Below, piece by piece: positions 33,421 through 47,058 of a stretch of DNA of 49,327 nt (the stretch's first letter is position 1; the number at the start of each line of letters is the position of its first letter). Where the stretch lies: the NCBI GenBank assembly GCA_024275995.1, contig JAJRYB010000131.1, positions 1 to 49,327 of the forward strand, given 5' to 3'. A model generated the notes under the pieces. It did not search any database. It saw nothing but the letters and a program-made list of their open reading frames with translations, and was not told where the DNA came from. The position numbers and the translations under genes are program-made. Source of the DNA: Planctomycetota bacterium (GTDB taxonomy: Bacteria; Planctomycetota; Phycisphaerae; SM23-33).

Positions 33421-33610
33421 TTATGTTGTAATTCTGTCGTGGCGTGTCGGTTTTTACCACACTTCAGAGACGTTGCCCGCCCGGCGAGGTTGACGGTCCC
33501 GTCGAGCGATGGCGTTTTTGGTTCGCTTTGGTGGAGACGAAGCCCGGTTTGCTCGGCGCGTCCGGCAGGTATCCGCGATGGTTTCACCTTTCGATGTCGG
33601 GAGAGTTGTT

Positions 33611-36600
33611 ATGGCGCTGCGTGATTCAAGTGAACCCCTCGATTCGTCGGAGTCTGCAAGGCCGGAGGACACCAATCGCTCAGGGTCCGAAGGGTTGAAG
33701 GTCGAGCACGTTTTTTCCACGCCGGGCGTGCACCCGTTCGACGAGATCGACTGGGAAAAACGTTCGGCGCGCATCAGCGACGACAAGGGCAACACGATCT
33801 TCGAGCAGGCGGACGTGGAAGTGCCTGCCCAGTGGACCCAGTTGGCGACCAACGTAGTCGTCAGCAAATATTTCTACGGCGAGCAGGGAACTTCCGAGCG
33901 GGAACGGTCCGTCAGGCAGCTTGTTCATCGCGTCTGCCGAACGATTGCCGACTGGGGCGCCCAGGACGGTATCTTCGCCTCCGACGCCGACGCGGAGCGA
34001 TTCTACAACGAGCTGACCTACATGTGCGTGAACCAGTATTCCGCGTTCAACTCGCCGGTCTGGTTCAACGTCGGCCTGTTCCACCAGGCGGGCATCGAAG
34101 GATCGAAGGGCAATTATCACTGGGACCCCAAGGCCGGGCGCCCGGTCAAGACGACCCGCAGCTACGAGTTTCCGCAGGCTTCGGCGTGTTTCATCCAGGG
34201 CGTCGAAGACTCGATGGAAGACATCATGCGCCTCGCCCAGGCGGAGGCGATGCTGTTCAAGTTCGGCAGCGGAACCGGTACGGACCTTTCCACGCTTCGC
34301 AGCTCGCGGGAGAAACTCGCCGGCGGCGGTACGCCGTCCGGACCGTTGAGTTTCATGCGCGTCTACGATCAGATCGCCGGCGTGATCAAGTCCGGTGGAA
34401 AGACTCGCCGCGCCGCGAAAATGCAATCGCTGCGATGCGATCATCCGGACATCCGCGAGTTCATCACGTGCAAGATGGAAGAGGAGAAGAAGGCCTGGTC
34501 GCTCATCGAGCAGGGTTACGACGGTGGGTTCAACGGCGAGGCGTACAGCTCGGTCATGTTCCAGAACGCCAACCTGTCCGTGCGCGTCACGGACGATTTC
34601 ATGCAGGCGGCCCTTGACGATGCCGACTGGCAGACCTACGCGGTAACCGACGGCAGGCCAATGGAGAAGCACAAGGCAGGCGAGCTTCTGCGACTGATTG
34701 CCGAGGGAGCGTACGTCTGCGGCGATCCGGGCGTGCAGTATCACTCCACGATCAACCGATGGCACACCTGCCCGGACAGTGGCGAAATCTGCGCGTCCAA
34801 TCCGTGCAGCGAGTACATGTTCCTCAACGATTCAGCCTGCAACCTCGCCAGCCTGAACCTCATGAAATTCCGCCGACCCGACGGAGCGTTCGATACGGAG
34901 CGGTTCCGTTCTGCGGTGCGCCTGCTGATTATCGCGCAGGAACTCATGGTGGACCACGCAAGTTACCCCGTCGAAACGATTTGCCGAAACAGCCACGACT
35001 TCAGGCCTCTGGGCCTGGGATACGCCAACCTCGGCGCATTGATCATGTCGCTTGGCCTGCCTTACGATAGCGACGATGGACGTGGAACCGCCGCGGCGAT
35101 AACGGCGCTCATGACGGGGACCGCATACACCACCAGCGCCGCCATTTCCGGAAGGGTCGGACCGTTCGCCCAGTTCGAAAAGAACCGCAAGGGCATGTTG
35201 ACCGTCATGGAAATGCACCGTCTCAAGGCGCGGGAGCTTTCCGAGGACCACTGCCCGAAGGACCTGCGAGCCTCGGCGATAGCCGCCTGGGACGAGGCGA
35301 TCGATTCCGGCCGCAGAAACGGATACCGCAACGCGCAGGTGACCGTCCTGGCGCCGACCGGGACGATCGGGTTCATGATGGACTGCGACACGACCGGTAT
35401 CGAACCGGATATCGCCCTGGTGAAGTATAAGCAGCTCGCCGGCGGAGGGGTGTTCAAGATCGTCAACAACACGGTGCCGATGGCGCTGGAACGGTTGGGT
35501 TATTCCAGTCAGCAGATTTCCGAAATCATCGAGCACATTGACGAACATGACACGATCGAAGGCGCGCCGCACCTGCGCGACGAGCACCTGGGCGTATTTG
35601 ATTGCGCGTTCCGCCCCGCCAACGGTCGTCGCAGCATTCACTACATGGGGCACATCCGAATGATGGGCGCCGCTCAGCCGTTCCTGTCCGGCGCCATTTC
35701 CAAGACCGTCAACATGCCCACCGAGGCGACGGCAGACGACATCAGGCAGGTTTTCATCGACGGGTGGAAGCTGGGACTCAAGGCGGTCGCCATCTACCGC
35801 GACGGTTCGAAACGCACCCAGCCGCTCAACGTATCGCAGGAACAGATCGACGGGGAAAAAATCGACGAGACGTTCAGCCTCGAGGATATCGAGGCCGCTC
35901 GCCGCACGCCGCATCGGAGGCGCCTTCCCGCTACCCGCCCGTCAGTAGCGCACAAGTTCGAGGTGGCGGGACACGAAGGATATCTGCATGTGGGCCTCTT
36001 CCATGATGGAAGCCCGGGCGAACTGTTCATCACGATGGCGAAAGAAGGTTCCACCGTCGGTGGAATGATGGACGCGTTCGCGACCTCGATCAGCCTGTGC
36101 CTGCAATACGGCGTTCCGCTCGAAGCGCTCGTCAAAAAATTCTCACATCAGCGATTCGAACCGTCCGGAATGACGACGAACCGCGACATTCCGTTCGCCA
36201 AGAGTATCGTCGATTACGTTTTCCGCTGGTTGGGCGTCACCTTCCTGGAGGGATACCGCAAGGCGAACACTCCCAACCGACGGAACGATTCGACGAAAAC
36301 GACCGGGCTTCAGACATTGGTCGCCCCGGCTATGAAGAAAGCAGCGCCCGAGGCTGTCAGGGATGACGTTTCCTCGGAACCTGGCCGCGCCGAAGGGGCC
36401 TCTCGCACGGAAGCGAAGAGGCCTGTCGGCGCATCTGGCGCCGGGATATACGCGTCGAGCAAACCGGATGGCGGTAACGGCGGAGTGGCGAAGGACCCTG
36501 CCCGCAAGGCGGTAGCAGGCGTTGCGACGGAAAAACTGACCCGTCGAATGAGAGCTGCGCCCGAACGCGTGGACCAGCAGTTTTCCCATTACCAGGAAGA

Positions 36601-36694
36601 CGCTCCCGCGTGCGATATGTGCGGTTCGATTACGGTTCGAAACGGAAACTGTTACAAGTGCTACAACTGCGGCTCGTCGCTGGGTTGCAGCTAG
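33611..36694 (+). CDS. nrdJ: Adenosylcobalamin-dependent (class II) ribonucleoside-diphosphate reductase
   Basis: 1027 aa. It makes deoxyribonucleotides using B12 in place of an O2-dependent tyrosyl radical, fitting an oxygen-variable or anaerobic life. N397-P-C399-S-E401 is the active-site triad (NPCSEYMF); FNSPVWFNVG, FPQASACFIQ, FKFGSGTGTD, KTRRAAKM and APTGTIGFMMDCDTTG are family blocks. The C-terminus has a zinc-ribbon tail (C1001-x2-C, CYKCYNCGSS) that carries the reducing cysteines. About 80 residues before it (near 910-985) are low-complexity Ala/Gly/Lys linker. ATG 33611 is preferred: GGGAGAG sits 5 nt upstream. Four NrdR-like boxes precede it. Confidence 0.95.
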   Translation: MALRDSSEPLDSSESARPEDTNRSGSEGLKVEHVFSTPGVHPFDEIDWEKRSARISDDKGNTIFEQADVEVPAQWTQLATNVVVSKYFYGEQGTSERERSVRQLVHRVCRTIADWGAQDGIFASDADAERFYNELTYMCVNQYSAFNSPVWFNVGLFHQAGIEGSKGNYHWDPKAGRPVKTTRSYEFPQASACFIQGVEDSMEDIMRLAQAEAMLFKFGSGTGTDLSTLRSSREKLAGGGTPSGPLSFMRVYDQIAGVIKSGGKTRRAAKMQSLRCDHPDIREFITCKMEEEKKAWSLIEQGYDGGFNGEAYSSVMFQNANLSVRVTDDFMQAALDDADWQTYAVTDGRPMEKHKAGELLRLIAEGAYVCGDPGVQYHSTINRWHTCPDSGEICASNPCSEYMFLNDSACNLASLNLMKFRRPDGAFDTERFRSAVRLLIIAQELMVDHASYPVETICRNSHDFRPLGLGYANLGALIMSLGLPYDSDDGRGTAAAITALMTGTAYTTSAAISGRVGPFAQFEKNRKGMLTVMEMHRLKARELSEDHCPKDLRASAIAAWDEAIDSGRRNGYRNAQVTVLAPTGTIGFMMDCDTTGIEPDIALVKYKQLAGGGVFKIVNNTVPMALERLGYSSQQISEIIEHIDEHDTIEGAPHLRDEHLGVFDCAFRPANGRRSIHYMGHIRMMGAAQPFLSGAISKTVNMPTEATADDIRQVFIDGWKLGLKAVAIYRDGSKRTQPLNVSQEQIDGEKIDETFSLEDIEAARRTPHRRRLPATRPSVAHKFEVAGHEGYLHVGLFHDGSPGELFITMAKEGSTVGGMMDAFATSISLCLQYGVPLEALVKKFSHQRFEPSGMTTNRDIPFAKSIVDYVFRWLGVTFLEGYRKANTPNRRNDSTKTTGLQTLVAPAMKKAAPEAVRDDVSSEPGRAEGASRTEAKRPVGASGAGIYASSKPDGGNGGVAKDPARKAVAGVATEKLTRRMRAAPERVDQQFSHYQEDAPACDMCGSITVRNGNCYKCYNCGSSLGCS

Positions 36695-37056
36695 GAACCG
36701 GTAAATAACCGGCAATCGGGCATCGGCAAAACGCCACGGCTGGAAAAAACGCCTTTGCCCGTGTTGGCGGGCGTCCATGGAAGGACGTCCGGTCATGTGG
36801 TTCGAAGATGCTTTTCGCCCGTCTTGGTCCGACGGAATGGACTTCAGCGGTACCGAGCGTCTTCGATTGGGTTTGGTATTGCGGTGCCGGCGCCGCTGAA
36901 CGGAAAGGGACTTTCTCCGGACGCCGCAATGCGAGTGTAACGAAGGTCTGACGGGTATCGGGCGGCGACAGCGGCGCCTTGCCGCCTGGCTTATACCGGG
37001 CGAGTATTTGCAACCCGGGGAAGTATGGATCGAATTACCTTCAATTGTCCTAAAGC
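36695..37056. other. Intergenic stretch with no recognisable feature
   Basis: 362 bp after nrdJ without a convincing gene or transcript. The only structure seen is a GGACGTCC palindrome near 36780 and short GC-rich inverted words. It ends at the -35 of the small-RNA promoter. Confidence 0.5.
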
Positions 37057-37084
37057 TTGAAGCCGTCAGTTTCCGAAGTATAAT
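37057..37084 (+). promoter_or_regulatory. Strong sigma-70 promoter of the small RNA
   Basis: TTGAAG (37057-37062), 16-bp spacer, perfect TATAAT (37079-37084). Transcription would begin near 37090-37092. This is one of the best promoters in the window and no open reading frame follows directly. Confidence 0.65.
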
Positions 37085-37090
37085 CGGAAC

Positions 37091-37204
37091 AAGTTGTCCG
37101 CTGCACCCCTGAACGATGTAGGTCTCCCTCCACCTGCATTAAGGGTAGTGCGGCTAATTCGGGCGATGCCAAGGTCTCCCTCCACCTGGGCGTCGCCTTT
37201 TTTT
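37091..37204 (+). ncRNA. Candidate regulatory small RNA with two C-rich anti-Shine-Dalgarno loops
   Basis: About 115 nt. Hairpin 1: stem 37116-37123 with 37132-37139 (8 bp, one G-U), loop CUCCCUCC. It is capped below by ACCC/GGGU (37105-37108 with 37143-37146) and CCGC/GCGG (37098-37101 with 37150-37153) around a 3x3 internal loop. Hairpin 2: AGGU/ACCU on a 9-bp stem (37162-37170 with 37189-37197), again with loop CUCCCUCC, followed by seven T residues. The 17-mer AGGTCTCCCTCCACCTG occurs exactly twice (37120-37136 and 37172-37188). Each loop contains CCUCC, the 16S anti-Shine-Dalgarno core, so it could pair with GGAGG ribosome binding sites. Its plan (two stem-loops, six C per loop) resembles the actinobacterial 6C RNA. 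Alternative: the leader and attenuator of the next gene. Confidence 0.7.
37162..37204 (+). terminator. Intrinsic terminator of the small RNA
   Basis: The stem 37162-37197 (13 bp with one A-G mismatch, one G-U) is followed by TTTTTTT at 37198-37204. The strongest rho-independent terminator in the window, and its loop is the second C-rich loop. Confidence 0.85.
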
Positions 37205-37381: not shown

Positions 37382-38086
37382 ATGCCAGGTCTCGCAGCCA
37401 CACCGGTCCAACTGCCTGATCTCATGAACGCCTTTGCGGACCTCGCCGGCGCATGGCTGTTCCTGCTGGTTCTCTGGGCGCTGATCCACTGCTTTCTCGG
37501 ATGCGTCGTCTTCAGGGCGCTGCTGATCGGAAACGCTCTTCTGGCAGGCGTAATCGTAAGCTGCTTCCTTCTCGGGACGTTCCGCACGGCGCCCGGCGGG
37601 CTGGATTATTTCGTAGCCTCCACCGCCGGTGCGGTGCTGCTGGGACTTGGTGCGTGGTTCGCGGGACGGGGAACCTTCGCGCTGCTTGTGGCGATAAGCG
37701 TCGCGGCGGTTGCCCTGGCGGCGGGGTGGATACTGGGGATCATCGCGGGAATCGCCGCGTTCGTCGTCGCGTACGCGTATTTCCGACGCGTGGCGATACT
37801 GGCAGGGGCGATAGACGGAGCGGCGGTGGCGGTTTTCGCCGTCGTGGCTATGTTCCTCGGCTCGGAAAACCGAATGTGGGATCACGTCTTGGGCTCACAG
37901 CGACAGACCGGTCCGGTGCTGATCCTGCTGGCATTCATCGTCGCCCTCGCGGTGGCGGGCGGATACATCCAGACGAAGCTCCTGGAATTGATACGCACCT
38001 CGTTGACCCCGGAGCATATTCTGCGCAGCGGCAAGCGTGCCCGCAGAAACCGCTCCACGGTTCGCCCGCGGTTCAGCAAATTGTAA
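37382..38086 (+). CDS. Multi-spanning membrane protein of unknown function
   Basis: 234 aa with about seven hydrophobic helices (WLFLLVLWALIHCFLGCVVF; LVAISVAAVALAAGWILGII; VLILLAFIVALAVAGGYIQT) and a short basic cytosolic tail (RSGKRARRNRSTVRPRFSKL). The Gly/Ala-rich helices recall the DUF4203/TMEM198-like fold, but I cannot confirm that. AAAGGG lies 7 nt before the ATG, and a separate promoter is proposed upstream. It is followed after 49 bp by leuD without an obvious functional link. Confidence 0.78.
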   Translation: MPGLAATPVQLPDLMNAFADLAGAWLFLLVLWALIHCFLGCVVFRALLIGNALLAGVIVSCFLLGTFRTAPGGLDYFVASTAGAVLLGLGAWFAGRGTFALLVAISVAAVALAAGWILGIIAGIAAFVVAYAYFRRVAILAGAIDGAAVAVFAVVAMFLGSENRMWDHVLGSQRQTGPVLILLAFIVALAVAGGYIQTKLLELIRTSLTPEHILRSGKRARRNRSTVRPRFSKL

Positions 38087-41115: not shown

Positions 41116-42414
41116 ATGCCAGGAAGGCGATTCAAGTTCGATCAGCCGTGCGCCTCGCAGCTGCGGTTGGGGGCGACAGGGCGCGCCGGCGTTTTGTTCC
41201 TTGCCGTATCGTGCGCGAGTGCGCTTGTGATACTCCGCTGCGCCGCCCCGGCCGATGGAGCCGACGCCGAGAAACGACCGGTCCGGACATACGAGTCCGC
41301 TTACTATATTATCCATTCGGACCTGGACCGCGATAAGATCCTGGAGGCGCACGCCAGGATGACGGCAGTGGCCCGGGAGTACCACCGCAGGACCAGGGGA
41401 TTCGCCGGTAAGATCCGCAAGAAGATGCCGTTTTACCTCTTTCGACGGAGGGAAGACTACATCCGCAACGGAGGGGTGCCCGGTTCGGCTGGCTTATTTT
41501 CCGTATGGGGCGGCCGCGCTAAACTGATGGCCTACGCCGGAAACTCGCGCGTCTGGCACACCGTCCAGCATGAAGCATTTCACCAGTTCGCCTATTACGT
41601 AATCCGCGGGAAGATTCCCATTTGGGTCAATGAGGGCCTGGCGGAATATTTCGGCAGCGGTTTGTGGACGGGCGACGGGCTGGTGACCGGCATAATACCG
41701 CCCGCGCGGCTGCGCAGGATAAAACGGCTGATCAAGTCCAATCAGATGCTCCCGTTTGCACGGATGCTCCGGATGAACAGCCGTCAGTGGTCGGCGAGTC
41801 TGAACCTGCGGAACTACGACCAGGCCTGGAGCATGTGCCATTTCCTGATCCATGCCAACGACGGCAAGTACAGCGGCGCTTTCTCGTCGTTCATTTCCGA
41901 CATCTCCCGCGGCAGGCCGGCTGAACACGCCTTCGCCGCGCGGTTCGGAAAGGACATCGAGGCCTTCCAGAAACGCTACAGCGCCTGGTGGCGTAATCTT
42001 CCCGAGCATCCCACGGCGAATCTTTACACCGAGGCCTCGGTCCATGCGCTCACGAGCTACCTGGCGCGCGGGCAGGTGCTTCAGCGCAAATTTACCGACG
42101 CGAAGGCGTTCTTCCGGGCGGCGCGTGACGGTAAGTTGCAGGTGGACCCCCGGCGGATGCCCCGCCTCTGGTTGCCCGACTCGCTGCTGGAAAAGACGCT
42201 GAAGAAGGCAGGGGTACTTGGCGACTGGTCACTGGAAACCGGTAAAAGACGGAAGACGTTGGTCCTGAAACAGGCGGACGGCGCCGTCTTTCGCGGAACG
42301 TACCGTTTGCACGGCGTCAAATCGCCCACGACCAGGGTGGAGGTCATTCCACCGGGCAAGGCGAAGGAGCCGGCCGGCAAAGACGCGAAAGGCAAAGGCC
42401 TCAGCGATTCTTGA
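41116..42414 (+). CDS. DUF1570-type putative secreted metallopeptidase
   Basis: 432 aa. An N-terminal hydrophobic segment (about 24-44) serves as signal or anchor. The zinc site is VQHEAFHQFAYY (HExxH, 152-156) with WVNEGLAEYFGSG 16 residues later (Glu173 or Glu177 as third ligand), a gluzincin layout typical of DUF1570. The C-terminal region is helical with a Lys-rich tail. The substrate is unknown. It starts 2 bp after accA, so they may be co-transcribed, though no functional link is evident. Its 3' end overlaps the convergent flavodiiron gene by 14 bp. Confidence 0.83.
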   Translation: MPGRRFKFDQPCASQLRLGATGRAGVLFLAVSCASALVILRCAAPADGADAEKRPVRTYESAYYIIHSDLDRDKILEAHARMTAVAREYHRRTRGFAGKIRKKMPFYLFRRREDYIRNGGVPGSAGLFSVWGGRAKLMAYAGNSRVWHTVQHEAFHQFAYYVIRGKIPIWVNEGLAEYFGSGLWTGDGLVTGIIPPARLRRIKRLIKSNQMLPFARMLRMNSRQWSASLNLRNYDQAWSMCHFLIHANDGKYSGAFSSFISDISRGRPAEHAFAARFGKDIEAFQKRYSAWWRNLPEHPTANLYTEASVHALTSYLARGQVLQRKFTDAKAFFRAARDGKLQVDPRRMPRLWLPDSLLEKTLKKAGVLGDWSLETGKRRKTLVLKQADGAVFRGTYRLHGVKSPTTRVEVIPPGKAKEPAGKDAKGKGLSDS

Positions 42415-43600
42415 GCTTCGCCGCGACGGCTTGCCCAAGTGCGTAGCATTGCTGCAATTCTTCGGTATCCGGGGCGTGCCTGCTCTTTGCGGGCGCGGAG
42501 ACGATCTCGACGCCCATTTCACCCAGGGACGCCTCGATGAGTGCCGTCGCTTCCCCGCTCCAGCCATGCGACCCGAACGCCGCGCCGAGAAGCCCCTTGG
42601 GTTGCAGGCCCTTGAGGTAACAGAGGCAGTCGGCCAGCGTGGGAAACAACTGCTTGTTGAGCGTAGGCGAACCGACGATCAGCGCACCGGCGTCGAGAAT
42701 TTCCATAGCCACGTCGGACCGGTGCGAACCTTCCAGCGGCATGAGTTTCGCCTTCGCGCCGCCGGCGGTCAGTCCTTCGCCAACGGACCTCGCCATAAGC
42801 TCTGTACTCTTCCACATCGTGTCGTAGACGACGATGGCCTTGTCCGTGCGCACCTGTGCGGACCAGCGGGCGTACGCGTCGATTATCTTCTGCGGATCGC
42901 GCCGCCAGATCGGACCGTGATCCGGCGCGATTATGCGGAAGTTCACGCCGAGCGATCCAGCCTTGTCCAGCGTCTTGATGACGAAGGAAGACAGCGGCAG
43001 CAGGATGTTGGCGTAGTACTTGGCAGCCTCGAAATCCAGCGTCGCCTCGTCGCACTCGTCGTCGAAGAGCTGGTAGGTCGCCAGGTGCATTCCGAAGGCG
43101 TCCTGGCTGAACAGCAGTTCGTCCTCGTGCAGGTAGCTGACCATGCTGTCGGGCCAGTGGCACATCCGCGTTTCGATGAACGTAAGGTTCGCATCGCCCA
43201 GTGAAACGCTCCCTCCGTCGGCGACGACGGAGACCTGATCACCCAGGCCGAATAGCCGCTCGAGCGCAGCGGCGCCGTTTTTCGAGGCGAAGACCTTTTC
43301 CGGACGCGCCGCGTCGATAACGTCTTTCAGGCAGCCCGTGTGGTCCGGTTCGGAGTGGTTGGACACGACGTAATCGATTTTCCCCGGATCGACGATCGAC
43401 GCGATTCGCGCGAACATCTCGTCGCGGAACGGCGCCTTGACCGTATCGATCAGCGTGACCTTTTCGCTCATGACGAGGAATGCGTTGTACGTCGTGCCCC
43501 GGCTGGTGAAGTAGCCGTGGAAATTCCGCGTGGTCCAGTCAACCGCGCCGACCCAATAGACCCTGTCGGTTACCGCAACGGCATGGAAAATATCCTTCAT
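42401..43600 (-). CDS. Flavodiiron protein (A-type flavoprotein, FprA family)
   Basis: 399 aa. The metallo-beta-lactamase-like domain holds all seven diiron ligands: H82, E84, D86, H87 (NHSEPDHTG), H148 (MCHWPDSM), D167 (SQDAFGMH) and H228 (APDHGPIW). A flavodoxin domain follows (VVYDTMWKSTELMA for FMN phosphate, LIVGSPTLNK, GLLGAAFGSHGWSG). It reduces O2 to water and/or NO to N2O, receiving electrons from rubredoxin-like donors. No rubredoxin gene is adjacent. ATG 43600. A 293-bp AT-rich repeat separates it from ferritin, so it may have its own promoter. Confidence 0.93.
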   Translation of the reverse strand: MKDIFHAVAVTDRVYWVGAVDWTTRNFHGYFTSRGTTYNAFLVMSEKVTLIDTVKAPFRDEMFARIASIVDPGKIDYVVSNHSEPDHTGCLKDVIDAARPEKVFASKNGAAALERLFGLGDQVSVVADGGSVSLGDANLTFIETRMCHWPDSMVSYLHEDELLFSQDAFGMHLATYQLFDDECDEATLDFEAAKYYANILLPLSSFVIKTLDKAGSLGVNFRIIAPDHGPIWRRDPQKIIDAYARWSAQVRTDKAIVVYDTMWKSTELMARSVGEGLTAGGAKAKLMPLEGSHRSDVAMEILDAGALIVGSPTLNKQLFPTLADCLCYLKGLQPKGLLGAAFGSHGWSGEATALIEASLGEMGVEIVSAPAKSRHAPDTEELQQCYALGQAVAAKLKNR

Positions 43601-43664
43601 CCAGTTGCTCCCTGCAAACTAATTTGCCCGTAATAATGATTGAATGGTCATGCTTGACGGAAAA

Positions 43665-43888
43665 GCAAATCCGAAATTCGAAACACGAAACAAACATCAA
43701 AAAAAAAAAACAAATTCTAAATAGAAAAACAACTACCGGCTATTCCGCAGGATTGCACGGAATGTGTTCATCTGTTCAATCATTTTGTTTTCGTCTTTGT
43801 GGTTTTTGGTTTTTATCTTTTGTTTCGAGTTTGTTGTTTTGCTTTTTCGTATTTGTTTCGAATTTCGTACTTCGAGTTTCGAATTTGC
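43665..43888. repeat. AT-rich palindromic element of TTCGAA words
   Basis: The left arm carries AAATCCGAAATTCGAAACACG; the right arm carries GTTTCGAATTTCGTACTTCG and GAGTTTCGAATTTG, its inverse. Between them are a run of 12 A residues and T-rich sequence. The stretch is far more AT-rich than anything around it. I take it as a dispersed non-coding element; it also may hold the terminator of ferritin and the promoter of the flavodiiron gene. Confidence 0.65.
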
Positions 43889-43893
43889 TGTAC

Positions 43894-44409
43894 CTAGGCG
43901 CCTTCTGCCGCAGGCGGCGTAGAGACGCGCGCGCCGAGTTCCCTGTCCAGCATGAGAAGCGCGTTTCCGCTCTCGCCGATCAACTGCAGCTTCCGGACGA
44001 TCCCGGACGCCGAGGCCTCTTCCTCGACCTGCTCGGTGACGAACCACTGGAGGAAAATCCCGGCTGCATGATCGCGCTGAGAGGCGGCGAGGTCCACCAG
44101 GTCGTCGATCAGTCCGGTCACCTTCCGCTCGTGAGCATACACCGCCTCAAATACAGCCAGGGAAGTCGCCCACTCAGTCTCCGGCCCGTCGATCGCCGTC
44201 AGCTTGACCTTCCCGCCTCGATCGATAATGAACCGGTAGAACTTGTCGGCATGTGCGAACTCTTCCATCGCCTGCACGCGCATCCACGCGGCGAAACCCT
44301 TGAGGTTCTTGTCCTCGAAGTCCGCCGACATGGACATGTACAGGTAGGCTGAGTACAGCTCGGCGTTGAGCTGGTTGTTGAATGCATCCTGGATCTTCTC
44401 GCATATCAT
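43894..44409 (-). CDS. Bacterial ferritin
   Basis: 171 aa four-helix iron-storage protein. LNAELYSAYLYMSMS, AMEEFAHADKFYRF, ERKVTGLIDDLV and FLQWFVTEQVEEEAS provide the ferroxidase ligands (Glu, Glu-His, Glu, Gln/Glu) of the FtnA type, with no haem-binding Met pattern of bacterioferritin evident. It oxidises Fe(II) and stores it, lowering Fenton damage. It lies 22 bp after tpx in the same direction and is probably the last gene of the defence operon. Confidence 0.94.
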   Translation of the reverse strand: MICEKIQDAFNNQLNAELYSAYLYMSMSADFEDKNLKGFAAWMRVQAMEEFAHADKFYRFIIDRGGKVKLTAIDGPETEWATSLAVFEAVYAHERKVTGLIDDLVDLAASQRDHAAGIFLQWFVTEQVEEEASASGIVRKLQLIGESGNALLMLDRELGARVSTPPAAEGA

Positions 44410-44431
44410 TTTTTATTCTTTCTGCGTCATT

Positions 44432-44953
44432 CTATCCGTTTTGCGCCGCTTTCGCGGCGGCGACGGCAGCGTCGTAATCCGGCTCGTTCGTCAGTTCCAC
44501 CACACGCTCGATATACGCGATTTTCCCGCCCGCGTCGATCACGAAAATTACCCTTGCCAGCAGCCGCAGCCCCTTGATCAGCACGCCGTAGGCCTTTCCG
44601 AACGCCACCTCGCGGTGATCGCTGAGCGTGCGGACGCGCTGGACGCCCGCTGCCCCGCACCAACGCGCCTGCGCAAAGGGCAGGTCGGTGCTGATCGTCA
44701 AGACGAGAACCCCTTCGCCCAGGGCGGACGCCTCTTCGTTGAACCTGCGGGTCTGCCTGTCGCAGACGCCGGTGTCCAGCGAGGGAACCACCGAGACGAT
44801 CAACGTCTTGCCGAAAAACGACGAGAGCTTCTGCTCGGATAAATCGTTGCCAACCAGCACAGCATCCGGCGCGTCCTCGCCGACGTTCAGCTCCGGACCC
44901 AAAAGCGTCAGCGGGTCGCCTTCCATGGTAACGGCACCTTCACGTTCGATCAT
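44432..44953 (-). CDS. tpx: Thiol peroxidase
   Basis: 173 aa atypical 2-Cys peroxiredoxin. Peroxidatic Cys64 in PSLDTGVCDRQTRRF and resolving Cys99 in QARWCGAAG, 35 residues apart as in Tpx. It reduces hydrogen and lipid peroxides using thioredoxin, whose gene ends 1 bp upstream. ATG 44953 has GGGAG 4 nt upstream; a start nine residues earlier at 44980 overlaps trx. Confidence 0.94.
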   Translation of the reverse strand: MIEREGAVTMEGDPLTLLGPELNVGEDAPDAVLVGNDLSEQKLSSFFGKTLIVSVVPSLDTGVCDRQTRRFNEEASALGEGVLVLTISTDLPFAQARWCGAAGVQRVRTLSDHREVAFGKAYGVLIKGLRLLARVIFVIDAGGKIAYIERVVELTNEPDYDAAVAAAKAAQNG

Positions 44954-44954
44954 C

Positions 44955-45506
44955 TTACTCCCTTTCTTCGGCCGGGCCACTCGTGGCGCCGCCGTTTTCC
45001 GATTTCAATAGTTCGATGGCTGAATCCAGCACCTTGCGATAACTTTCCAGCGGTTCGGAACCCATGCGACTGAAAGGCTCGCCTCGCACGAAAACGATTA
45101 TCGTCGGGATCGAGCTGATACCGTAGCGCTGCGCCAGGGCCTTCTCGTCGTCCACGTTGACCTTCAGCACGCGTGCCCTGCCGGCGTATTCGTCGGCGAT
45201 TTTTGCAATCGTAGGCGCCAGCGTGCGGCACGGGCCGCACCAGTCGGCATAGAAATCCACGAGAACCGGCGTCCCGTGATCCGCAAGCGCCCTGTCGAAT
45301 TCTTCCTCGCCCACGCCCTGGGTGCGTTTCCCACCGCCGCGGAAAAAAGTCATAGCTACGACCACGCCGATAAGGCACCCGAAAATCGCGCCGCTCCAGG
45401 GGCTGCCCGTCAGCGGACAGCCGCCCGGACGGCACTTGCCGAAGTATCCCAGCACACCGCCCGCGACCAGTCCGATCGCGCCGCCTATTACAAGTCTCGT
45501 CCACAT
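44955..45506 (-). CDS. Membrane-anchored thioredoxin with DUF6132-like N-terminus
   Basis: 183 aa. Residues 1-55 form two hydrophobic helices joined by GKCRPGGCPLTGSPWSGA, the pattern of small DUF6132 membrane proteins with a Cys-x4-Cys (C25, C30) loop. Residues about 65-165 are a thioredoxin with the active site DWCGPC (C90, C93), PTIIVF cis-Pro loop and family strands. A short Glu-rich tail follows. It likely sits in the inner membrane with its thioredoxin domain cytosolic, and reduces the adjacent Tpx. Fusion of the two parts is unusual; each is normally separate. Confidence 0.88.
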   Translation of the reverse strand: MWTRLVIGGAIGLVAGGVLGYFGKCRPGGCPLTGSPWSGAIFGCLIGVVVAMTFFRGGGKRTQGVGEEEFDRALADHGTPVLVDFYADWCGPCRTLAPTIAKIADEYAGRARVLKVNVDDEKALAQRYGISSIPTIIVFVRGEPFSRMGSEPLESYRKVLDSAIELLKSENGGATSGPAEERE

Positions 45507-45512
45507 TTTTCA

Positions 45513-45650
45513 TCGATCCCGCTGCAGACCCGGTTACTCAAGTCGGCCGCAGCATTGTAAGCAGCATTTTTTGTAGCTGGCCCACGCGCCTCTCGATCCC
45601 GCTGCAGACCCGGTTACTCAAGTCGGCCGCAGCATTGTAAGCAGCATTTT
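45513..45650. repeat. 58-bp perfect direct repeat, 80 bp apart
   Basis: Copy 1 (45513-45570) and copy 2 (45593-45650) are identical over 58 bp, separated by 22 bp. Copy 2 covers the last 11 codons of the cupin gene, so copy 1 holds a duplicated cupin gene end placed just before the thioredoxin start. It looks like a recent tandem duplication. Confidence 0.9.
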
Positions 45651-45983
45651 GAAACGTTTTTTCGCGCGCACGGCGTGCGGCACGTTTGCGGGCATAACGA
45701 CAAGTTGCCCGGCATCGACGGCGAGAGGCTTTCCGCCGATAACCAGTTCCGCCTGCCCGTCCAACACCTGCACCACCGCGTCGAACGGCGCGGAGTGCTC
45801 ACTGAGCGCCTCTCCTTGGTCAAAGGCGAAGAGCGTAATCGTTCCAGCGTCGTTTTCGATAAGCGTCCGGCTGACGATGGAACCTTCCGCGTATGCCACC
45901 GCAGACTGCAAATCCAACGCCTGCGATGGCGTAATTCCCGCGGCGCCGGCGCCGCAGCATCCAGAATCGTTTCCGTCACTCAT
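45618..45983 (-). CDS. Small cupin-domain protein
   Basis: 121 aa. A Cys-rich start (MSDGNDSGCCGAG) leads to a single beta-barrel cupin: GEALSEHSAPFDAVVQVLDG, AGQLVVMPANVPHAV with one to three His as possible metal ligands. The function is unknown; the location after a metal permease and before thioredoxin suggests metal or redox handling. The ATG 45983 overlaps the permease stop by 8 bp and has GGGAG 9 nt upstream. Its 3' end is part of a 58-bp duplication. Confidence 0.85.
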   Translation of the reverse strand: MSDGNDSGCCGAGAAGITPSQALDLQSAVAYAEGSIVSRTLIENDAGTITLFAFDQGEALSEHSAPFDAVVQVLDGQAELVIGGKPLAVDAGQLVVMPANVPHAVRAKKRFKMLLTMLRPT

Positions 45984-47058
45984 GGCAGCTGTCTCCCTGT
46001 TTGTCCTGTTCACATTTGTCCTCGTGTACGTGCTCCGCGCCGCCGTGCGATTCGCGCCGTCGAAGCAATATCGCATTCAGCAGAACGCCAAGCAGGATGA
46101 CGGCGCAGACCGTCTTGAACCACTCCGGCAGCATCCATCCCATCGCCGGACCCGTCGTCACGGACTGCCACGAGTAGATACCGTCCAGCAGAATTCCCCC
46201 TCCAAAGGCAGCGCCTATCATCGTCCCCAGGTATATCACCGCCGTCCTTGGTCCCATGACCTTCCAGACGGTGCCTATCGTAGCGGCGTTGGTGGCAGGA
46301 CCGGTCATGAGAAACGCGAACGCCGCGCCCGGCGAGGCGCCCGCCTGCATGATAAGCGCAAAAGCGATTGGCACCGATGCCGTGGCGCACACGTAAACGG
46401 GAATCCCTGCCGCCATCAGAACAAGTATCTGCATCGCGCCTCGGGGAACGTACGAGGCGAAAAAGTCTTTCGGCATCATCGCCGAGATCAGCGCCGCGAC
46501 CAGCAGACCTATCAGCAGCGGCCAGCCGATGTCACGCGCCAGCGTCACGAAACCGAATCGCATGATTCGTGCGAATTTGCCGGATTGCACGGTATTGCAG
46601 CACGTATCCGTGTGCGGCTCGGCGTCCACCGCTTCGAGCTGGCCTTCCTTCCTGCCGAAGCCGACGATTACCCCCCCGATGATCCCGCTGATAAAGGCAA
46701 CGATCGGGCGGAAGATCGCGAAAACTCCCCCCAGCAGGCTGTAGGTCACGAATATGCTGTCCACGCCCGTCTGCGGGGTGGAGATGAGAAAACTCGTCGC
46801 GGCTGCGTTACTGGCGCCGTGTTTCCGCAACGATGCGGAAACCGGAATCACGCTGCACGAGCAGAGCGGCAGCGGTACGCCGAACGCGGAGGCCTTAACG
46901 ACCGGCCAGATTCCACGTCCGCCGAGGTGACGCTGAACGGTCTGGGTGGAAACGTAGACCGACAGCACCCCCGCAACGAGAAAGCCGCCAAGCAGGTAGG
47001 GCGACATCCCGCCGAGGACTGACCAGAACTCCGATGCTATCTCGACGATTTTTTCCAT
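45976..47058 (-). CDS. SO_0444-type (DUF318) metal efflux permease
   Basis: 360 aa with about nine TM helices. GVPLPLCSCSVIPVSASLRK (C66, C68) and GASNAAATSFLISTPQTGVD are the signatures of the SO_0444/YraQ permease family linked to Cu, Zn or arsenic-type export. The C-terminal tail is His/Cys rich (ESHGGAEHVHEDKCEQD, then GDSCHE), a likely metal-binding tail. ATG 47058. It starts 17 bp after the TIGR02757 gene and is translationally coupled to the cupin. Confidence 0.87.
   Translation of the reverse strand: MEKIVEIASEFWSVLGGMSPYLLGGFLVAGVLSVYVSTQTVQRHLGGRGIWPVVKASAFGVPLPLCSCSVIPVSASLRKHGASNAAATSFLISTPQTGVDSIFVTYSLLGGVFAIFRPIVAFISGIIGGVIVGFGRKEGQLEAVDAEPHTDTCCNTVQSGKFARIMRFGFVTLARDIGWPLLIGLLVAALISAMMPKDFFASYVPRGAMQILVLMAAGIPVYVCATASVPIAFALIMQAGASPGAAFAFLMTGPATNAATIGTVWKVMGPRTAVIYLGTMIGAAFGGGILLDGIYSWQSVTTGPAMGWMLPEWFKTVCAVILLGVLLNAILLRRRESHGGAEHVHEDKCEQDKQGDSCHE

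Follow-up and report, generated by a model that had tools for sequence, protein, structure and literature searches.

A predicted small RNA with two identical C-rich loops, conserved behind nrdJ in one order of Planctomycetota

The CCUCCUCCC-motif (cuckoo) sRNAs of alphaproteobacteria, whose hosts have Hfq, are present in multiple copies and carry anti-Shine-Dalgarno-like, C-rich loops. The two C-rich loops of the mycobacterial 6C/B11 RNA pair with ribosome-binding sites, and either loop is enough (PMC10470900). NmsRA and NmsRB of Neisseria meningitidis are siblings with two anti-Shine-Dalgarno, UC-rich segments (PMC5362039). A 2022 review gives 8 small RNAs across all Planctomycetes, Verrucomicrobia and Chlamydiae (PMC9029176), a superphylum in which such RNAs are barely catalogued.

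Our analysis concerns a window of 49,327 nucleotides (the whole stretch of DNA that was analysed) from a Planctomycetota bacterium, in which an earlier note had proposed an undescribed small RNA. From its sequence features and their conservation, the locus near 37091–37204 is confirmed as a real small RNA gene (Table 1). On comparative evidence, the small RNA is an undescribed, deeply conserved family of one order of uncultured planctomycetes. The claim of novelty, for which a scan of Rfam had been proposed as a check, has held: no Rfam family matches the small RNA at gathering score, and literature searches did not find an earlier description of it.

Organization of the small RNA gene

The promoter boxes (TTGAAG at 37057–37062 and TATAAT at 37079–37084) agree with the consensus at 10 of 12 positions, compared with 0.3 such sites in shuffles. 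The transcribed region adopts a three-part fold in which an outer stem encloses an inner hairpin and is followed by a terminator hairpin. The predicted free energy of this fold is -57 kcal/mol (z = -4.5), and none of 200 shuffles was equally stable. A 17-mer, AGGTCTCCCTCCACCTG, is present in two exact copies at 37120–37136 and 37172–37188, 52 nt apart, and these copies place the octamer CUCCCUCC in the two hairpin loops (CTCCCTCC at 37124–37131 and 37176–37183), the second of which is followed by seven T residues at 37198–37204. Thus the TTGAAG-N16-TATAAT promoter, the RNA of about 115 nt (about 114 nt in our estimate), the terminator with seven T residues, the common octamer and the 17-mer used twice 52 bp apart are all present as the earlier note had claimed. 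Its two-hairpin description is correct for both hairpins but overlooked the outer stem formed by 37100–37110 and 37142–37154. The first six bases of the near-invariant 5' segment TTGTCCGCTGCACCC are unpaired and could serve as a second seed.

The TAAAGnTT-N14-CCGA element, which overlaps the sigma-70-like promoter, resembles a sigma-28-type promoter except that its spacer is longer by two bases, and it is present with exact spacing ahead of nine orthologues.

Table 1. Coordinates of the small RNA, its parts and the candidate target sites in the window
Feature	Position	Strand	Basis or remark
nrdJ, vitamin B12-dependent (class II) ribonucleotide reductase	33509..36694	+	NCBIfam NF005122, 1408 bits vs cut-off 859
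Candidate target at nrdJ start: GGGAGAG 33599–33605, in-frame ATG 33611	33599..33613	+	sequence; inferred
TAAAGnTT-N14-CCGA element, overlaps sigma-70-like promoter	37051..37076	+	kept ahead of orthologues
Sigma-70-type promoter TTGAAG-N16-TATAAT	37057..37084	+	sequence; similarly placed sigma-70-type -10 boxes precede the RNA in several orthologues
Small RNA	37091..37204	+	about 114 nt; 5' end estimated from -10 box; covariance model R1 109 bits, E 1.8e-26
Near-invariant 5' segment TTGTCCGCTGCACCC	37094..37108	+	alignment A1
Outer stem, 37100–37110 with 37142–37154, around hairpin 1	37100..37154	+	fold; covariation
Hairpin 1, loop CUCCCUCC at 37124–37131	37115..37140	+	fold; covariation
Hairpin 2 = intrinsic terminator, loop CUCCCUCC at 37176–37183, then seven T	37161..37204	+	fold; covariation
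Cupin start, ATG 45983, AGGGAGAC = 8-nt perfect match to loop GUCUCCCU	45981..45998	-	candidate target only

Conservation, covariation and paralogues

By DNA search, almost all genomes of the same family and order yielded homologues, the named records being metagenome assemblies of Phycisphaerae and other Planctomycetota. With the covariance model, each of 38 genomes searched from the order has a match at E<=0.1 (37 at E<=0.001), and the roughly 359 other class genomes sampled have none. The loop 14-mer has about 119 matches in the order, against about 9 for the reversed control, and falls to background outside it. In these searches, genuine homologues came only from one order of Phycisphaerae-type Planctomycetota. 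Matches with two loops were also seen in Bacteroidales, Streptomyces, Glycomyces and another actinobacterium but were rejected, as they are devoid of the conserved 5' part, the pairing stems and the T run. A match in Oscillospiraceae (L061) comes from a CRISPR array with GTCTCCCTCCACCCGGAGGGAG in its repeat and is unrelated to the small RNA.

Covariation was analysed in an alignment of 26 homologues with 30 consensus pairs (780 cells). Double-sided changes have occurred in 13 of the 30 pairs, with 5 of 9 pairs affected in hairpin 1 and 7 of 13 in hairpin 2, and 97.2% of the cells are paired as compared with 93.2% in shuffles and 34–50% when the partner is slid. The loops are 99% identical whereas the lower stems are 75–82% identical; the stem tops AGGU/ACCU are 94.7% identical, and CUCCCUCC is present at each of the two loop positions in 24 of the 26 sequences. 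Selection on structure plus loop, as had been suggested from the window, is borne out by these stems, and the covariance-model search of relatives that had been proposed as a check did find homologues with compensatory changes across the order. Recurrence of the same fold with covarying stems across one order places the RNA far beyond chance. G-U pairs account for 101 of the 780 cells, and pairing would drop to 85% on the opposite strand, which argues that the transcript lies on the plus strand.

Besides the locus in the window, the genome under study has a complete second copy on contig 24 and, on contigs 44 and 86, one copy each that consists of a single hairpin. Further one- or two-hairpin RNAs with different stems and the C-rich loops CUCCCUCC, CUCCCCUCCCC and UUCCCCUCCCC are present in relatives, although the list leans towards similar loops because the search model favours them. 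One relative has three tandem RNAs of about 88 nt and a weaker fourth, the last three being 195 nt apart (G009 contig 140, L140:1714-2427). The first loop of these tandem RNAs is UUUUCCUCCUUU, a sequence that matches the usual 16S anti-Shine-Dalgarno tail; the 16S 3' end of this genome itself did not turn up in the sampled stretches. No Rfam family matches any of the paralogues. When a 30% sample of the genome was scanned for terminator loops rich in C, none was found, but this says little because the strict requirement of eight unbroken pairs also misses the terminator of the window itself.

The single-hairpin copies on contigs 44 and 86 (L003 and L004) have a common upstream stretch, TTGATW-CCGCCCAC....GGCGC, which perhaps represents a common promoter with an operator. 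The second full copy (L045, L062 and L070) has conserved opposite-strand neighbours of its own and a strong TATAAT box, and its setting suggests a possible old duplication with a separate role.

Candidate targets and proposed mode of action

Shine-Dalgarno use is clear in this genome, with an AGGAG peak near -11 among 567 genes called from a 30% sample. The CUCCC and CCUCC of the loop are complementary to GGGAG and GGAGG, which are present at 32 and 24 of the 567 starts, respectively. Pairing between loop and start region at <= -14 kcal/mol was found for 41 of these genes, compared with 31 for the control and 26 for the reversed loop. The sites at which the earlier note had expected blocking do exist in the window (GGAGG ahead of FecR, AGGAGG ahead of HTH-GspE, GGGAG ahead of tpx/redoxin and AGGGAGAC ahead of the cupin gene), but loop pairing at starts is hardly above control. 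In summed counts, AGGGAGAC is present ahead of ATG 316 times (a set that includes some antisense matches on the sRNA genes) against 84 when reversed, and the Shine-Dalgarno-matched control AGGGAGCA, which does not fit the loop, 263 times against 103. Because enrichment of the control is nearly equal, no genome-wide signal beyond ordinary ribosome-binding sites is seen. A AGGGAGAC regulon was therefore rejected, and there is no recurrent gene family among 31 AGGGAGAC sites. The exact octamer GGAGGGAG was also rejected as a target, as only about 1 in 60 of its sites lies properly ahead of an ATG.

Three genes with GGGAG ribosome-binding sites are grouped on the minus strand at 42401–45998; they encode a flavodiiron-type protein, a thiol peroxidase-like redoxin and a cupin. 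This group could be a co-regulated oxygen-stress cluster.

The start of nrdJ is probably the ATG at 33611, which has GGGAGAG ahead of it, and not the first ATG of the frame at 33509. The sRNA contains UCUCCC, the complement of GGGAGA at this start, which gives a 6-nt match in the window. With nrdJ starts chosen by eye among candidates with a Shine-Dalgarno-like stretch, and with all genomes lying within the order, GGGAG is present at nrdJ starts in 14 of 26 genomes (11 of 21 genera), compared with 32 of 567 genes (5.6%) in this genome. Among GGAG-bearing starts, the preceding G is over-represented at nrdJ (Fisher P = 0.001). The bases around the site vary between genera, and the match is missing in genus g9 and two others. 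It is possible that shared ancestry lies behind the enrichment. On these sequence grounds, nrdJ itself appears to be the best candidate target of the sRNA.

Hfq was found in none of the 38 genomes of the order by a search whose control run detects it in five named genomes, including E. coli and B. subtilis. The best reading, with a probability of about 0.6, is that of an Hfq-independent, trans-acting sRNA whose loops block Shine-Dalgarno sites, nrdJ being the likeliest conserved target. Transcription from its own promoter behind nrdJ would give a trans-acting RNA of about 114 nt. Its terminator hairpin would end this RNA and probably the nrdJ message too. Stiff stems would keep the two C-rich loops CUCCCUCC single-stranded, and their pairing with GGGAG/GGAGG-type ribosome-binding sites would keep ribosomes off. 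The two loops might act redundantly or jointly, and Hfq would not be needed. With nrdJ as the likeliest conserved target, a feedback loop might result, though we regard such feedback as doubtful. We infer expression of the sRNA, its Shine-Dalgarno pairing, repression and every one of its targets; that it most likely blocks ribosome binding follows from its analogy to 6C/B11 and the NmsRs.

Position of the gene bears on two other explanations. Of 36 named loci, 25 have nrdJ immediately upstream in the same orientation; of the others, four are truncated before this can be judged and seven are second copies that lack nrdJ. A simple scan of the interval from nrdJ to the RNA detected no intrinsic terminator in 25 of 26 nrdJ-linked loci, so the terminator of the RNA probably also ends the nrdJ message. 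Both observations would fit an element of the nrdJ 3'-UTR that chiefly terminates or stabilises the message, with any action in trans being secondary. However, the two constant loops, the outer stem and a promoter of its own go beyond what a terminator requires, and the seven full second copies stand in loci without nrdJ, some of them with other conserved neighbours; we consider such a role quite improbable. On the downstream side, the terminator precedes a gene at 37382 on the same strand, as a cis-acting leader or attenuator would. The downstream genes of homologues vary in identity and orientation, which argues against a leader function of the RNA for the gene that follows, and no antiterminator is evident for the hairpin. 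A leader of the 37382 gene, ruled against by these non-conserved neighbours, receives hardly any credence from us.

The loops themselves might instead be a site for a protein that binds C-rich RNA, the RNA serving as a decoy or scaffold, like CsrB for CsrA, without pairing to mRNA. Such a site would fit the two loops, presented identically, the constancy of the stem tops (AGGU/ACCU) and the absence of genome-wide target enrichment. Against this, the loops of the paralogues differ (UUUUCCUCCUUU, CUCCCCUCCCC and UUCCCCUCCCC) and yet stay complementary to Shine-Dalgarno sequences, and we judge a protein site unlikely. The design would also suit kissing loops, the RNA being a sponge or antagonist whose C-rich loops engage G-rich ones in other small RNAs, and paralogues could compete for targets. 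Since GGAGGGAG is only 1.5-fold more frequent in the genome than its reversed control (64 against 43, sRNA genes removed), a sponge seems very improbable.

With blocking of Shine-Dalgarno sites as the preferred reading, a wider and speculative extension may be considered. An order in which Hfq was not detected might run a network of sibling C-rich-loop RNAs, whose core member, located in the nrdJ 3' end, feeds back on the GGGAG site of nrdJ and acts as a brake on other GGGAG-type genes, such as those for the peroxiredoxin, the flavodiiron protein and the cupin in the window. We would not expect this to hold; if true, translational braking of those other genes would be tied to the supply of deoxynucleotides. 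The position of this deeply conserved RNA behind nrdJ offers a concrete first target.

Comparison with described small RNAs

The best sub-threshold Rfam match of the small RNA is the ftsZ-DE RNA (RF02985), which scores 18.9 bits (E 0.3) where the cut-off is 72.2. The two have in common a terminator-like hairpin with GGUCUCCCU in its loop, while the other hairpin of the sRNA is unmatched. The CCUCCUCCC-motif (cuckoo) sRNAs differ in their motif, and the sRNA has no Rfam match to them. Like the sRNA, NmsRA and NmsRB have two anti-Shine-Dalgarno segments and sibling copies. However, one of their segments is a single-stranded linker, they belong to Betaproteobacteria, and a relation at the level of Rfam was not found.

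The nearest likeness is to 6C/B11 (RF01066), which is also small and Hfq-independent, with two hairpins whose redundant C-rich loops are proposed to cover ribosome-binding sites (PMC10470900). The resemblance in plan pointed out in the earlier note is real, as two hairpins with C-rich loops are present, yet the RF01066 covariance model does not match the small RNA even up to E = 10. While 6C has a run of about six C, the longest C run in CUCCCUCC is three. Unlike 6C, the sRNA has no Rfam match, possesses an outer stem and uses its second loop as the terminator loop; it lies behind nrdJ in Planctomycetota, whereas 6C is found in actinobacteria. The sRNA is thus close to 6C by design but is not a member of that family. 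A 6C-like design in unrelated sequence and fold suggests a convergent, Hfq-free way of blocking ribosome-binding sites.
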